A stretch of DNA of 35,976 nucleotides from NCBI GenBank assembly GCA_017431845.1, contig JAFRKG010000013.1, forward strand, positions 1 to 35,976, written 5' to 3'. This document shows positions 2,465-35,976 of the stretch, in pieces. Source of the stretch: Methanosphaera sp. (lineage in GTDB: Archaea; Methanobacteriota; Methanobacteria; Methanobacteriales; Methanobacteriaceae). Numbering within the stretch: position 1 is the first letter of the stretch; each line of letters starts with the position of its first letter. The notes beneath the pieces are model-generated. The model was not told where the DNA came from and searched no databases. It worked only from the letters and a program-made list of their open reading frames with translations. A program made the translations under genes and the position numbers.

Positions 2465-2578
2465 AAATATCACAAACTTTGAAATCATGGTGTTTTATTG
2501 TTTTGTTAATATTAATACAAATATAACAGTTAGGGAAACAAGGATATAAAAGTATATAATGAATGAGAGGAAATAGTA

Positions 2579-2902
2579 ATGCGAAAATTAACAAGAAGTG
2601 AATTAGAACGTTTAGTAGCATTACAGTCTAATAAATATAAAAAAGATGTTAGTATAATTTTAGAAGCTTATTATTCAGTTTTAAAAGAAGCTATTATGAC
2701 TGGATATGAAGTTGGCATTCCTAATATCGGAACTTTTTCTAATACACAAGTTGATGCTAAACCTGCAAGACAAGGCATTAATCCATTTACTAAAGAAAAA
2801 ATGATGCTACCTGCACAGCAAGCATTTAATAAACCTACTTTTAGATTTCGTCCTGCTATTAAAGCAGAAATGAAAGAAGAAACTTTGGGTAGGGTATTCT
2901 AA
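2579..2902 (+). CDS. HU/IHF-family DNA-binding protein
   Basis: The 107-residue product has the HU/IHF layout: an N-terminal helical part, then a beta segment with IPNIGTF, then GINPFTKEK, matching the GRNPxTGE signature of the HU beta arm, and a closing FRFRPAIK that resembles the F+xxxxLK end of HU. It is expected to bind and bend DNA as a dimer. The start ATG follows GAGAGGAAATAG. The stop overlaps the next gene's start by one base (TAATG), implying translational coupling with a second HU-like protein. Phage HU homologues often sit near replication or packaging genes; whether this one helps packaging or transcription cannot be told. Confidence 0.85.
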   Translation: MRKLTRSELERLVALQSNKYKKDVSIILEAYYSVLKEAIMTGYEVGIPNIGTFSNTQVDAKPARQGINPFTKEKMMLPAQQAFNKPTFRFRPAIKAEMKEETLGRVF

Positions 2903-3390
2903 TGGGTAAGACTTTAAAACATAAACAGTTTTTACAAATGTGGTACAATAGATGCAACTTCCAAAATAAATTTGTCGAAAGTCATATGGAAGAAATCTAT
3001 AATGGTTTATTAGATACAATTAGAGAAGAAGTTAGATATAATGGTTCTGTAAGATTAAAAAATATTGGAAAGTTTTATTTATTAGAAACTGGAGGCTACG
3101 AAAGGCGAGGGCGAGATGGACTAATGTATTTCGTCCCTATTCATTATGCTCCTAAATTTACAGCTAGTCAAAATTTTAAAGATTATGTAAATGATGCTAT
3201 TGTAAGTAAAGAGGGGCGTAGAAATAAAAAACGTGGAACTCTTACTGCACTTGAACAAGAATTAGAAGAACGTGATGCAGAAAAGAGCAAAACAGATATT
3301 AGGAGAATGTTAGAAAGAAAACGAGATACTGGCGAAAACATTAAAGAGATTGTCAAGGATACTCGTATGCAAATTAAAAGGAGAACATAG
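2902..3390 (+). CDS. Second, divergent HU-like DNA-binding protein
   Basis: This 162-residue protein is translationally coupled to the upstream HU gene. Residues about 1-100 look HU-like: a helical start, then VRLKNIGKFYLLETGG in the position of the HU GIGTF strand, an ERRG turn where the DNA-binding arm would begin, and FVPIHYAPKFTAS before a final short helix (NFKDYVND). A charged, Lys/Arg/Glu-rich extension of about 60 residues follows, probably a helix. The pair may form a heterodimer like IHF, which is inference from adjacency. Divergence in the arm region makes the family call less firm than for its neighbour. Confidence 0.6.
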   Translation: MGKTLKHKQFLQMWYNRCNFQNKFVESHMEEIYNGLLDTIREEVRYNGSVRLKNIGKFYLLETGGYERRGRDGLMYFVPIHYAPKFTASQNFKDYVNDAIVSKEGRRNKKRGTLTALEQELEERDAEKSKTDIRRMLERKRDTGENIKEIVKDTRMQIKRRT

Positions 3391-3392
3391 TT

Positions 3393-4556
3393 ATGCCCAA
3401 GTCATATGAAGATGAACTTCAGCTTTTAATTGATAAGGTTGAAGGGGTTGATGATAGGAGTTGGGAAGAGATGGTGGATGAGCTTGATATATCCGTACAT
3501 CCCGATTCTTTAAGAAAATCTTTTAATGGGGGACGGTATAGTGGATATGCAGTTGCGAAGCATTATCAAGAAAAATTTCAAAATGATTACTGTTCTCAAG
3601 AAGAATTAGATAGATTAGAAACTTTAAAAAAGGAAGTATATAAAGAAAAGATTAAATATCAAGATGCTCGTAGAGAATATCGAAAAGAATTGATGGCAGA
3701 AGCAAGATATGAAAATCTTGTAGATGTATTAAAATCTGCATTACAAAATCTTGATGAGTTGCCAATATATAAATATGGCGAACGTGTTGAAAAGAAAAAT
3801 AATTCAAAGAGTGCTATTGTAATGTTATCAGATTGGCATGTTGGTAGTTTAATAGATACTCAATTTAATTGTTATTCTGTTGAGATTGCTCACGAACGTA
3901 TGGAACAACTATTAAATAAATTAAAAAAATATATACTTAATTATAATATTACAGATTTGGCAATCGAGATAAATGGTGATATGTCGCATGGAATTATTAA
4001 TGTAAGTAATAGAATACAATCTGAAGAAGATGCGGTTTCACAAATTGTTATTGTGTCAAATATGTTAGCGTATTTTATTAATGAATTAAAACCTTATGTA
4101 CGTAGTATAAAAGTAATTACTACATTGGGTAATCATGGTAGACTTATTCCAAATAAAAAAGAATCTATTAATAAAGAAAATATGGAAATGTTAATTCCAG
4201 AATTTCTTAAATTAAAATTAGATAAAGATATAACTATTACAACATCTGGTGGTTTAGATTTTGTTAAATATACATTTAATAATAAAATTATTTGTTTGGC
4301 TCATGGACAACATGATAAGGTAAATCAAGTTATAGAAGATTTTAGTAAAATATATAAATGCGTTCCAGATGAAATACATTTAGGACATACACATGCGCAT
4401 AAAGATATAAACGAATCAAATATATATGTAACTGTTAATGGTAGTCTTTGTGGCAGTGATGAATATGCTTTAAATCTTAGAGCAGTAACTAAGCCAAGCC
4501 AAACATTAATTATATACGATGAAGATAGATGTGTAATAGAAATAATTGTTGATTAA
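3393..4556 (+). CDS. Calcineurin-like metallophosphoesterase
   Basis: The 387-residue protein carries the metallophosphoesterase motifs in order: SDWHVG (about residue 145, D-x-H), NGDMSHG (about 193, GD), LGNHGR (about 246, GNH), LAHGQHD (about 303) and LGHTHAH (about 330, GHxH). These coordinate the di-metal centre. Residues about 1-130 are a charged, helix-rich N-terminal region with SLRKSFNGGRYSGYAVAKHYQEK, whose middle resembles a helix-turn-helix, followed by a likely coiled coil. The length resembles phage DNA-repair-nuclease-like phosphoesterases. Substrate cannot be told; a nuclease or nucleotide role in phage DNA metabolism is likely. The start is ATG three bases after the HU-like gene, with AAAAGGAGA upstream; a terminator follows the stop. 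Confidence 0.85.
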   Translation: MPKSYEDELQLLIDKVEGVDDRSWEEMVDELDISVHPDSLRKSFNGGRYSGYAVAKHYQEKFQNDYCSQEELDRLETLKKEVYKEKIKYQDARREYRKELMAEARYENLVDVLKSALQNLDELPIYKYGERVEKKNNSKSAIVMLSDWHVGSLIDTQFNCYSVEIAHERMEQLLNKLKKYILNYNITDLAIEINGDMSHGIINVSNRIQSEEDAVSQIVIVSNMLAYFINELKPYVRSIKVITTLGNHGRLIPNKKESINKENMEMLIPEFLKLKLDKDITITTSGGLDFVKYTFNNKIICLAHGQHDKVNQVIEDFSKIYKCVPDEIHLGHTHAHKDINESNIYVTVNGSLCGSDEYALNLRAVTKPSQTLIIYDEDRCVIEIIVD

Positions 4557-31212: not shown

Positions 31213-33735
31213 ATGAGTAAATATACAGGAAGTTTTCCTAATATAAAAACATCATATACTCGTGCTGATGTTATAGCCGATATGAATGCATGGGCAAGAA
31301 AAATTGCGTCCGATAATAGATATCATTATAATTTATGGAATCAAAGTAATGCACAATCTCATAAATGTCCGATTTGCAGTAAGCTTGATTATAATAAAGA
31401 TAGTAAACATTTTGGATGGAATTGCATTGGTTTTGGTGCGGCTGTATGGCATCATGGTGGAGCGTTAGGAAATATTTGTAATTGTCATTGGATATCTGGC
31501 CCACATGGTACTGGTGAGTATTTACTTGAAGCTAAGACAGATGCAGATGCATTAAAACTTGCTAAAAAATATACAGGCATTAAAGATATTACAATAATTA
31601 GAAATAAGAATAATATTCCAAAAAGTCAATGGAAAGCTGGAGATATATGCTTGAAGTTTTCTGGTAATACGTTTGAGCATGTATTCTATTACCCAGGTGG
31701 TACTACTGTTATTGATAGTACAAGAATCTATAATGACCAAAGTAAGTGGACAAAAGATGTAATTGCCAATCAGATTAAAGAACGTTCATATAAAAGTTAT
31801 ACGGCTAAAGTTATCATTCGTTATAATGGTAATGGTACTAAATATCGTAATTATATTAAAATGGGCGATAGTGGTTCTGAAGTTAAGAAATTACAACAAT
31901 TTCTTAATTGGGCTATGGATTCTAAATTAGTAGTCGATGGTGATTTTGGAGCAAAAACTGATACTGCTGTTAGAGCGTTTCAGACAAAGTGTAAGATTAC
32001 CGTTGATGGTTTATTTGGAACTGGTTCTTTAACTGCCGCAAAAGCATTTGATAAAGTTACACCTACATCAAGCGCAACTAAAGCTGTTAAAACTAAATGG
32101 AAAGGTATAGATATTTCAGCATGGCAAGATAAAATTAGTATAACTAATTTTAAGAAGGCTAAAGCAAGTGGTATTGATTATGTAATTCTTAGATTAGGAT
32201 ATACTGGTAGTTCTTCAAAGAAGCCCACTATTGATAGTGTATTTGAGCATAATTATGCTAATGCTATTTCTGCTGGATTGTCAGTTGGTGTGTATTATTA
32301 TTCTCTTGCTACAACTACAGCAAAAGCACAAACTGAAGCTGAATTTGTAATTAAATATCTTAAAGGCAAGAAGATTACATATCCTGTTTATATAGATATG
32401 GAAGATAATACATATCAAAGCAAATGTTCTAAATCAACATTAGCTTCTGTATGTAATGCATTTTGTAAATCTATTAAAAATGCTGGATATATTCCAGGTG
32501 TTTATGCAAGTTTATATTGGTTTAATAATAAGATTGGAAATATTACGGCTGAACATACTAAATGGGTTGCTCAGTATTATAAGAAATGTGAATATAAAGG
32601 CGCATATGATATGTGGCAATATAGTTCATCTGAAGCTGTAAGTGGTATTGCAAGTAAGACAGATGTAAGTTGGTGTTATAAAGATTTTAATGCTATACAA
32701 ATAGATTATGTTGTACAACCAGACGAGAATAATGTGGTTGATGTAGATTATGTGGTAGTAAATACGAAATCTATCGAAGAACTTGCCAAAGAAGTTATTA
32801 ATGGTAAATGGGGAACTGGTGATGATAGAAAAAAGAGATTAACTAAAGCTGGATATGATTATGATAAAGTTCAAGCAAAGGTTAATGAAATTCTTAAATC
32901 GCAAAATAATATAACAAAGAAAACATATAGTGGCACATTGCCTACATTAACACTAAAGAAAAGCAATGCCGAAGTAATTAATGATGCTGTCGCTTTTGGT
33001 ATATGGATTGCAGGAGATAATAGCTTCCATTATGGTTATACCAATAAATCTAAGACGATTAATGCTCATCATAATGGATGTTATTTCTGTAATACAAATA
33101 CTGATAAAGGTGGACGTTCTAAGAAGGGTATTGTAGATTATAAGAAAACATATTGTTGCAATCCATTTGTACATGCTTGTTGGGCGCATGGTGGTTGTGT
33201 TCCTAAAGCTTTAGAGATTTGCCAGAAGGGTAGTTCTTGGGATTTTAATAAAGGTCATGGATATGATAAATCTTCATTGTTTACTAATCTTGGACATCCT
33301 GCTAAATCTAAATTAAAGAAGGGCGATGTGCTTTGTCGTGATACACATGTTGCGCTTTATATTGGCAATGGTAAAATTGTTGAAGCAGGTAGTGGAGATG
33401 ATAATAAAAAGGGTTCAACTAAATGGAATAATTCTATTAGAGTCAGAACATTAACTGATGATAATTATAAGAAGTTCCCAAGGGTTCATAGGTTTAACTC
33501 ATCTGTAAAAACTACTGTTATATTAAGACATGGTGAAGTAAGTGACAGAGTTAGACAATGGCAAGCTTTTCTTAATTGGTATTATGATGGACAACTTGGT
33601 AATTTAGATAGATATTTTGGTGATAATACATTAAAATGGACTAAGAAATTCCAAGAAGAAGTTATGGGTAAAGGGCAAGGCGATGGTCTTGTCGGAGAAA
33701 AAACTTTAGCGGCGGCTAAAACTGTTAAAAAATAA
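31213..33735 (+). CDS. Six-part modular lysin (two Cys peptidase-like domains, GH25, CW_7, two PG-binding)
   Basis: The 840-residue enzyme contains, in order: a cysteine peptidase-like domain (about 1-195; HKCPIC, WNCIGFG, CNCHW, HVFYYPGG); a PG-binding domain (215-275; KMGDSGSEVKKLQQFLN, VDGDFG); a GH25 lysozyme (about 295-490; GIDISAWQ, YIDMEDN with the catalytic D-x-E); a CW_7-like segment (about 519-559; LAKEVINGKWGTGDDRKKRL); a second cysteine peptidase-like domain (about 575-758; NGCYFC, YCCNPFVHACW, DTHVALYIGNG); and a final PG-binding domain (about 768-838). It should cut both glycan and peptide bonds. AAGGGGTGATGTT lies before the ATG. The two peptidase-like parts share the T-L-P or F-P start and the HKCPIC/HNGCYFC pattern, so they look like diverged copies. 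Confidence 0.85.
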   Translation: MSKYTGSFPNIKTSYTRADVIADMNAWARKIASDNRYHYNLWNQSNAQSHKCPICSKLDYNKDSKHFGWNCIGFGAAVWHHGGALGNICNCHWISGPHGTGEYLLEAKTDADALKLAKKYTGIKDITIIRNKNNIPKSQWKAGDICLKFSGNTFEHVFYYPGGTTVIDSTRIYNDQSKWTKDVIANQIKERSYKSYTAKVIIRYNGNGTKYRNYIKMGDSGSEVKKLQQFLNWAMDSKLVVDGDFGAKTDTAVRAFQTKCKITVDGLFGTGSLTAAKAFDKVTPTSSATKAVKTKWKGIDISAWQDKISITNFKKAKASGIDYVILRLGYTGSSSKKPTIDSVFEHNYANAISAGLSVGVYYYSLATTTAKAQTEAEFVIKYLKGKKITYPVYIDMEDNTYQSKCSKSTLASVCNAFCKSIKNAGYIPGVYASLYWFNNKIGNITAEHTKWVAQYYKKCEYKGAYDMWQYSSSEAVSGIASKTDVSWCYKDFNAIQIDYVVQPDENNVVDVDYVVVNTKSIEELAKEVINGKWGTGDDRKKRLTKAGYDYDKVQAKVNEILKSQNNITKKTYSGTLPTLTLKKSNAEVINDAVAFGIWIAGDNSFHYGYTNKSKTINAHHNGCYFCNTNTDKGGRSKKGIVDYKKTYCCNPFVHACWAHGGCVPKALEICQKGSSWDFNKGHGYDKSSLFTNLGHPAKSKLKKGDVLCRDTHVALYIGNGKIVEAGSGDDNKKGSTKWNNSIRVRTLTDDNYKKFPRVHRFNSSVKTTVILRHGEVSDRVRQWQAFLNWYYDGQLGNLDRYFGDNTLKWTKKFQEEVMGKGQGDGLVGEKTLAAAKTVKK

Positions 33736-34561: not shown

Positions 34562-35776
34562 ATGGGCAAAGTCGGTACAGAAGCGACCTTACTTCAGATT
34601 TATGATAAGGTCAATAACATTGAAGCCTATACAGACATCCTTGCTAATGGGTGGACAACTCATGACTGGCCAGGATTAAAGAGGCTTGTAGAAGATGGCG
34701 TTGCACAGCACGAGTATCCAGTAGGTTCTCGAATCACTGAAACTTGGGCTAAAGATGCAAACACAAATATTTCTGCTCCATGGGATGTAGTACATTATGA
34801 TGAGGGTGGAAATATGTTTTTAAAATGGCATTATGCTATTCCTGACGGAATGCCATTTGATGCTCCAGAAGCTATTTGGTATGCTGATGCTGAAAACCTT
34901 TTAACTGCTGGTACATATAATATTGCTATTGGTTCTGCTTATGGCAATGGTTGGGTTGTTGGACAAGCAATTCAGTTTACACTTACTGAAGACCTTGTTG
35001 AAGGTGACCAGATATTTATTAATTGTGGTACAGACCAAAATGTAAATCCAACTAATAATAGAGCTTGGAATGTTTATGCACAAGGTTCTACTACGTCAAA
35101 ACAAAGTGGTACAACTACTAATGGTACAGATGGTACAAATCTTGGTACTATTGGTAATGTAAGTGCTCAAAGAACCAATGGTTTACTTAATGCTATTTCA
35201 AGAGTTGTATATGGTTCTGGTAGGTGGTCAGAATCTGCTATAAGACAATATCTTAATAGTACGTCTGCGGCTGGTGCTTGGTGGATTCCAAAGAATGGTT
35301 GGGATAGACCTCCTGCACAAGCGGCAACAATGCGTGGATTCCTTGGTGGATGTAGTGAAGACTTCCTTAATATTATTGAAGAAGTTCCTGTAGTAACTGC
35401 ACTTAATACTGTAGAGGGATTCACAAACACAACTGAAACAACATATGATAAGATATTCCTTCCATCACTGCAAGAAATGTATATTAATCCACAACTTGCA
35501 GGAGTTGAGGGAGAAGATTGGGATTACTATAAAGACCTTGCAGAAGAAGCAGGACTTACAGGTAAATTTGCGCAGGGTGGTACATATCCGATACTCATTA
35601 CGTATCAAGCTGGAAGCACCACTTCCCCTGTCGTCGTTTGGTTACGCTCTGCTTATAGAGGTAATGCCTACAGTGCGTGGCTTGTCTACGGCACTGGCTA
35701 CGTCTACTACAGCTACGGCTACGGCGTGTTTAATGCGTATAGGGGTTGCCCCGCCTGCAAAATTTTAGCATCCTAA
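34562..35776 (+). CDS. DGR target protein (DUF6273-like / C-type-lectin-like)
   Basis: The 404-residue protein has AAAAGGAGAAAATAA before its ATG. The N-terminal about 200 residues form a beta-rich linker region (AYTDILANGWTTHDWPGLKRL at the start of it). The C-terminal about 200 residues follow the DUF6273/lectin-like plan: ESAIRQYLNST, GAWWIPKNGWDRPP, GFLGGCSEDFL, DKIFLPSLQEMYI, and VVVWLRSA. The end is a Tyr/Gly tract followed by RGCPACKILAS. The tract is coded mostly by NNC codons (TAC, GGC, GTC, AGC), as expected from adenine mutagenesis of AAC codons. It probably sits at the tip and binds receptors. The hairpin and avd gene downstream support this. Confidence 0.82.
   Translation: MGKVGTEATLLQIYDKVNNIEAYTDILANGWTTHDWPGLKRLVEDGVAQHEYPVGSRITETWAKDANTNISAPWDVVHYDEGGNMFLKWHYAIPDGMPFDAPEAIWYADAENLLTAGTYNIAIGSAYGNGWVVGQAIQFTLTEDLVEGDQIFINCGTDQNVNPTNNRAWNVYAQGSTTSKQSGTTTNGTDGTNLGTIGNVSAQRTNGLLNAISRVVYGSGRWSESAIRQYLNSTSAAGAWWIPKNGWDRPPAQAATMRGFLGGCSEDFLNIIEEVPVVTALNTVEGFTNTTETTYDKIFLPSLQEMYINPQLAGVEGEDWDYYKDLAEEAGLTGKFAQGGTYPILITYQAGSTTSPVVVWLRSAYRGNAYSAWLVYGTGYVYYSYGYGVFNAYRGCPACKILAS
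35651..35740 (+). other. DGR variable repeat (variable codons)
   Basis: Codons from GCT 35651 to TAT 35738 include a dense series of NNC/NNT codons encoding VYGTGYVYYSYGYGVF and surrounding residues. The invariant frame (A-x-R-G-x-A, AW, RGCPAC) matches the start and end of DGR variable repeats of gut phages. GC rises sharply here compared with the gene body. The exact repeat borders need the template repeat, which is outside the window. Confidence 0.72.
35741..35758 (+). other. Candidate IMH (initiation of mutagenic homing) sequence
   Basis: AGGGGTTGCCCCGCCTGC is a GC-rich tract at the 3' end of the variable repeat, in an otherwise AT-rich gene, as at the 3' end of known variable repeats. 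It lies 18 bases before the stop codon. Confidence 0.5.
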
Positions 35777-35797
35777 TCATCTAGGAAATCCAATCAT

Positions 35798-35821
35798 CCC
35801 CACGGCACACCTGCCGTGGGG
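35798..35821 (+). other. DGR-type hairpin/cruciform downstream of the variable repeat
   Basis: CCCCACGGCA and TGCCGTGGGG form a perfect 10-bp GC-rich stem with a 4-base loop (CACC), 21 bases past the target stop. This matches the size (short stem, 4-base loop) and position of the hairpin needed for retrohoming in the Bordetella phage DGR. It could also end transcription, but no T-run follows. Confidence 0.72.
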
Positions 35822-35884
35822 TCTTACAACAGAACAGATAAGTTATCGGAGAATTGGCAGAAAGGAGATAAGTGGTAATAAAGG

Positions 35885-35976
35885 ATGTTACACGAAGGAC
35901 AGTATAAGGAGAATGCATTTACTCCAGTTATTAATGCTATGGAACTTTGTGATTATGTATTTACAATTACAGATAA
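35885..35976 (+). CDS. avd: Avd-like DGR accessory protein (3' partial)
   Basis: The window shows 30 codons of an ORF that begins at ATG 35885 (two in-frame stops sit just upstream). It reads MLHEGQYKENAFTPVINAME, then LCDYVFTITD. The ALELCDYxxxxT-like pattern is typical of Avd and S23-type four-helix-bundle proteins found next to DGR reverse transcriptases in Firmicutes. An AAAGGAGAT sits further upstream than usual (about 17 bases). Avd binds the reverse transcriptase and is needed for mutagenic homing. The call is limited by the short visible length. Confidence 0.62.
   Translation, partial: MLHEGQYKENAFTPVINAMELCDYVFTITD

Follow-up and report, generated by a model that had tools for sequence, protein, structure and literature searches.

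The window considered here, the whole of a 35,976-nucleotide (nt) contig from a Methanosphaera sp. assembly (GCA_017431845.1, contig JAFRKG010000013.1), ends at 34562-35976 in the left, target-gene part of a phage diversity-generating retroelement (DGR), a system in which a variable repeat (VR) in the target gene is rewritten from a template repeat (TR) by a reverse transcriptase (RT). A related public viral contig, L018, carries the entire cassette, and its TR is divided by an insert that is, by comparative evidence, a group I intron. We have good confidence that the window carries the target half of such a DGR and that the L018 TR contains a group I intron that would be spliced out before the template is copied. 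The split template had not been foreseen by an earlier reading of the window made from its letters and open reading frames (ORFs) (the sequence-only reading), which had recognized the window's DGR parts.

The target gene (34562-35776, forward strand, as are all features below) encodes a 404-residue protein with a DUF6273 domain (PF19789, residues 217-381; Pfam, E 8.7e-16) and a C-terminal variable region, and the protein ends in ...YRGCPACKILAS. The sequence-only reading had pointed to an NNC-rich gene end, and the bias is pronounced: 22 of 43 codons in the VR are NNC, versus 32 of 356 upstream in the same gene (Fisher p 1.6e-10). On alignment to the L018 TR, the VR occupies approximately 35628-35763 and includes at its 3' end a GC-rich tract, AGGGGTTGCCCCGCCTGCAAAAT (35741-35763), that resembles an initiation of mutagenic homing (IMH) site. 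This tract is matched exactly in L011 and L012 (on the contigs of L007 and L018, respectively), and its counterpart in the L018 TR shows two differences, both at template adenines. Downstream lies a perfect 10-bp hairpin or cruciform with the 4-nt loop CACC (35798-35821; stems 35798-35807 and 35812-35821), which is the sole inverted repeat of at least 8 nt, with copies no more than 60 nt apart, reported by an inverted-repeat search in 35560-35976. The last feature is the 5' end of avd (35885-35976), which the end of the contig truncates after 30 codons; it is 86.7% identical over 30 residues to the complete Avd of L018 (E about 3e-13). IMH-like tract, hairpin and Avd-like start thus all stand as the sequence-only reading had described them. 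Because the contig ends 92 nt into avd, the TR and RT are unreadable in the window, and for the window's own phage we infer them from its relatives. The target is probably a receptor-binding tail protein; its orthologues are 95% identical in L007, 97% in L009 and 80% in L012, and its AlphaFold model (mean predicted local distance difference test score, pLDDT, 33) is too poor for use.

L018 lies on contig IMGVR_UViG_3300031993_000505, of which L012, L023 and L060 are further loci, and is 78.6% identical to the window in DNA over 1545 aligned positions that cover the target gene and the avd start. Its gene order is target gene with VR, a hairpin identical to the window's, avd, TR and RT, with 36 nt between the end of avd and the TR, and 183 nt between the end of the TR and the RT. 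The complete Avd has a match to phrog_3206 ("Avd protein of DGR", E 3.1e-9) and none to any Pfam family at E<=1, and the 358-residue RT matches phrog_1423 (E 7e-63) and PF00078 (E 3e-14). Within 126 compared bases, 40 of them template adenines, TR and VR mismatch at 13 positions, all at template A (chance 7e-8); two more differences, neither at A, lie just beyond the repeat. The spacer between TR and RT folds no better than its shuffles (z -0.04). With A-limited TR differences, an RT beside the TR, an Avd and a hairpin, the L018 cassette is a DGR. The sequence-only reading had expected TR and RT just outside the window: within about 3 kb there would be a close copy of the VR, carrying AAC at the variable codons, and then an RT, with differences confined to template adenines. 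This is the arrangement of L018/L023, the only near relative with a contig that continues; for the window's phage the two parts are unseen. Compared with the L018 TR, the window VR is changed at 20 of 41 template-A sites and 8 of 85 non-A sites (Fisher p 1.7e-6), and we take the non-A changes as distance between the two phages.

The predicted diversification of the VR is visible in three public viral contigs, L007, L008 and L009, which are approximately 96% identical to the window and 99.9% identical to one another. All 7 differences between L007 and L008 (5949 nt) and all 3 between L009 and L008 (5939 nt) lie within the VR, while L007 and L009 differ at 7 positions in 7124 nt, of which 3 belong to the VR and 4 lie outside it. 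The eight distinct variable VR positions among the three contigs all stand opposite template adenines of the L018 TR, and the VR of these sister phages is thus under ongoing diversification. The three contigs end within or shortly after the VR, and in an 86-kb sister record RVT_1 finds no match, and the ORFs listed at its far end include no RT. The window's own 2.48-Mb bin (203 contigs, the window being one whole contig, G000:C116, of 35976 bp) was covered by DNA, pattern and RT searches, none of which returned a TR or RT that fits or the remainder of avd, and no viral contig was found to carry a TR belonging to the window's species. A bin without TR and RT is what one would expect if the window tract were a degenerate or inactive DGR remnant. 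The contig end can account for the missing parts, however, and the sister phages differ almost solely in the VR, so that we consider a remnant very unlikely.

The TR of L018 comes in two pieces, 786-839 and 1091-1162, separated by a 251-nt insert at 840-1090. Relative to the VR, the two halves join without gain or loss of a base, at GCGT/GGAATG (the slash marks the junction). Among 16 RT loci examined, L018 is the only one with an interrupted TR, and the remaining 15 have no break in the comparable stretch. The GCGTGGAATGTCAAC site is present also in the nearest RT relative, L024 (67%), and there it has no insert. In L025, L027, L036 and L037 the TR match was returned as two overlapping pieces, because TR and VR are a few bases unequal in length; L027 and L028 are seen in part, as their sequence begins within the VR. 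L031 and L032 share identical TRs and VRs, with 7 of 10 differences at A, a count that leans towards A, as do all in this comparison, because its scoring favours differences at A. One might suspect that the split TR is an artefact of metagenome assembly, since it is known from one contig and assemblies break at repeats such as TR and VR. The junctions coincide precisely with a group I splice site, though, with no base lost or gained against the VR, and homologues of the insert occur elsewhere in phages, so that we consider an artefact very unlikely.

The boundaries of the insert, GCGT/AAG...TTG/GGAATG, are those of a group I intron, in that exon 1 ends in T (U) and the insert in G. Near its 5' end, a guide, UUCU-GCGC, can form 8 of 8 pairs with GGAA (P10) and GCGU (P1), a pairing matched by 15 of 5000 base shuffles of the first 60 nt of the insert. 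The remainder of the core was followed with a covariance model, R1, built from the 3' domain of the insert only (P7, P8, P9 and two further hairpins). R1 matches L053 with E 4e-12, a value that is not wholly independent because L053 was retrieved with a 17-base pattern from the same core. The L053 match adjoins a capsid gene (Phage_capsid_2, E 1e-8), in which this intron sits, and is preceded by an ORF with a weak LAGLIDADG_1 match (E 0.0018, below the cut-off) and no NCBIfam match. A first core pattern had given 23 stretches, of which only L053 and L060 (on the L018 contig) looked intron-like by eye, the others being chance-like; R1 was run on part of these. A second core-pattern scan gave at least 120 stretches, and here R1 was applied to 80 listed loci, of which 42 gave 74 matches in all at E<=1 (71 of these below 0.01), and then to 40 further loci together with 11 others, with 40 matches (38 below 0.01). 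Several matches are distant from the pattern that retrieved them; in L099, for example, the pattern is at 574-590 and matches occur also at 1466, 2129 and 2371.

Across the homologues, P7, P8, P9 and the two 3' hairpins covary strongly. The helix covariation is 0.687, versus 0.161 in shuffled and 0.06-0.09 in slid alignments; for the 74 R1 matches (64 distinct rows), 97.1% of cells are paired, versus 34-41% in slid controls, and there are 466 double changes, versus 123 in shuffles; all these figures lean towards the structure because the alignment was fitted to it. P3 lies outside R1 and was sought in 45 of 75 available entries (44 of the 74 R1 matches plus L018; 39 distinct introns). A full 7-pair partner occurs 60-115 nt upstream in 17 of the 39, while 300 swaps give 3.3 on average and never more than 8; the misses include introns with P3 beyond an ORF, L053 among them. 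The pairing is UCUAUUC/GAAUAGA in L018 and, found by eye across the ORF, UCUACUC/GAGUAGA in L053. The L018 insert thereby contains the P3-P7 pseudoknot core with P8 that marks group I introns, and no ORF of at least 80 amino acids is listed inside it on its own strand.

That the insert is some other structured element might be argued from Rfam, which gives no match at E<=10 for the insert and hence none to the group I family RF00028; neither the L018 stretch nor the window has an Rfam group I match, and L053 has no RF00028 match at E<=5. In addition, the insert with its flanks folds only weakly better than shuffles (z -1.75). Against this, the covarying helices and the P3 pseudoknot are those of a group I intron, one member lies within a capsid gene with the weak LAGLIDADG match inside, and RF00028 does reach three stretches of the family (two in L099, one in L112) at 23.8-30.1 bits, below its 50-bit cut-off. 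We consider another kind of element highly improbable.

The working that we propose is that the DGR RT, with Avd, copies the TR transcript and misreads template adenines, and that the cDNA would replace the VR at the 3' end of the DUF6273 gene, aided by the GC-rich IMH and the downstream hairpin. In L018, transcription would be followed by self-splicing at GCGU/GGAAUG, giving a contiguous TR RNA, then a mutagenic cDNA and an intron-free VR. An unspliced full-length template would carry 251 foreign bases and the VR has none, so splicing before or during copying would explain the VR, and on this sequence evidence splicing-dependent copying in L018 is likely. A further step, which we offer as a tentative and rather doubtful idea, is that in this lineage, possibly including the window's phage, a TR ribozyme makes retrohoming dependent on splicing, so that it gates or times diversification, while the intron is purged from the VR at each homing and sheltered in the never-targeted TR.

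Several observations weigh against this explanation, besides the incomplete bin, the single contig with a split TR and the silence of Rfam for the insert. A second model, R2, gave no intron either in the bin or across the host's phylum, where it was run over 151 genomes at E<=1e-4 with stricter filters and without a positive control. The RT of L018 has the motif GSQMVQ where most DGR RTs have GxxxSQ; we keep it among the DGRs because GxxxSQ is common but not universal, and GSQM[VI]Q is found in 11 of 12 aligned RTs, including L023 (GSQMVQ), with GSPINQ in L035. In the L018 VR, moreover, 2 of 14 template-A sites are changed in the 5' half versus 11 of 26 in the 3' half (p 0.09). The bias has the direction expected if an unspliced template rewrites the 3' half alone, and one of the two 5'-half changes (GTCTAC) is also present in L007-L009. 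These counts support the alternative that the window's phage has an ordinary DGR and that the intron in the L018 TR is a recent and crippling arrival, with the DGR either dead or rewriting only the 3' half of the VR from truncated cDNA; an interruption in 1 of 16 RT loci fits it too. Yet the half-to-half difference is not significant, there is no non-A substitution in the 126 compared bases, the RT and avd reading frames are open, and the insert retains the guide and core pairs expected of an intron that splices. A crippling intron therefore appears unlikely to us, and splicing ahead of copying remains the reading that we prefer.

An intron inside a TR has a laboratory precedent: Guo et al. 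(2008) reportedly placed an artificial self-splicing td group I intron in the TR of Bordetella phage BPP-1. The resemblance is that a self-splicing intron would be lost on passage of the TR through RNA, splicing being predicted from sequence for L018; the difference is that the L018 intron is natural, and another intron. If the L018 TR splices, it would be the natural counterpart of that experiment; the template would have to pass through spliced RNA, and loss of the intron from TR to VR could be read in nature. With phage group I introns (RF00028) the L018 intron shares the P1/P10 guide, the P3-P7 pseudoknot, P8, P9 and the U...G boundaries, and its relatives lie in a capsid gene (L053) and in a DGR target gene (L211). 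Unlike those introns, it lies in a non-coding template for reverse transcription, and its family is missed by Rfam or falls below the cut-off. In the open-access literature of PubMed Central we found no natural intron in a TR, and passages of PMC12386605, PMC8144416 and PMC3521204 make no mention of an interrupted TR. DGR finders that require a contiguous TR or GxxxSQ could miss such cassettes.

Further introns in TRs were sought in two scans, of 92 and 66 stretches. In the first, R1 matched L211 among the 80 listed loci of that scan and L281 among its 11 further loci (L273-L283); in the second, it matched L060, on the L018 contig, and L311. L211 was rejected as a TR intron, as it is located upstream of the VR in the target gene. 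It belongs to the same intron family (IMGVR_UViG_3300023371_001461, approximately 2554-3509; R1 E 4e-13), encloses an ORF, and seems to split the DUF6273 target gene of a different DGR phage. In that phage the TR (from 8431) is uninterrupted, and each of the 13 TR/VR differences falls at A. The L281 stretch (3300024272_002425) is 100% identical to that of L211 and comes from the same phage. In L099, five R1 matches, four at E<=1e-6, lie within about 2 kb of one phage contig (474-2487), probably because a single gene there is interrupted by several small group I introns. With R1 at E<=10, no copy of the intron was found in the window or in L024-L039, and of the related RT loci the 15 besides L018 show no match.

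The system as a whole is like the BPP-1 DGR (mtd, avd, TR, brt) in its target-avd-TR-spacer-RT order, A-specific mutagenesis, GC-rich IMH and hairpin after the VR, as outlined in PMC3240598 and PMC12875486. In the model given there, the RT-Avd complex reads TR RNA from the spacer side with errors at A, and IMH and hairpin assist the cDNA in replacing the VR. It differs from BPP-1 in the RT motif GSQMVQ and in the TR of L018 being split by the intron; GxxxSP is the motif named for RTs of epsilon crAss-like phages in PMC12386605. DGR hairpins in PMC3240598 have stems of 7-10 bp, GRNA loops and a distance of 4-34 nt from the VR, whereas the loop here is CACC or CACT and the window hairpin starts 41 nt past the VR end used in the hairpin comparison. 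The hairpin of the window is identical in sequence in L007 and L023; downstream of the VR in L024 and L031-L033 the loop CACC/CACT is retained and the stem sequences differ. By a strict perfect-stem rule, 8 of 18 loci have a hairpin 3' of the VR and 10 are without a perfect stem.

DUF6273 targets of DGRs are already described, as tentaclins of gut phages and in Faecalibacterium prophages (PMC10743442 and PMC11792537). As in these, the VR here lies inside the DUF6273 domain, which is C-type-lectin-like in tentaclins. In tentaclins the domain is N-terminal and followed by a fibronectin-type domain, whereas here it is C-terminal, and the target protein has no Pfam match to a fibronectin-type domain. 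The window adds one more phage DGR to those that target a DUF6273 protein; its near-identical sisters differ almost only in the VR.

Elsewhere on the window, profile matches for the 10 proteins given identify phage genes, including portal, tape measure, endolysin and exonuclease, and a large lysin-like protein (31213-33735) combines GH25, CW_7, peptidoglycan-binding and NlpC/P60 domains. Among 138 genomes of the host's family, one has a relative of the RT (E<=1e-20), at 31% identity. The RT search of the bin gave five RVT_1 matches, one of them inside a second, different DGR (L006, on G000:C3), with a VR from 610, a TR from 849 and an RT at 1162-2364; its TR and VR show 23 differences, 16 of them at template A. 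Finally, L038 (3001-4831), on a contig of a Clostridia metagenome-assembled genome, has two copies of the target gene, and both VRs match one TR.
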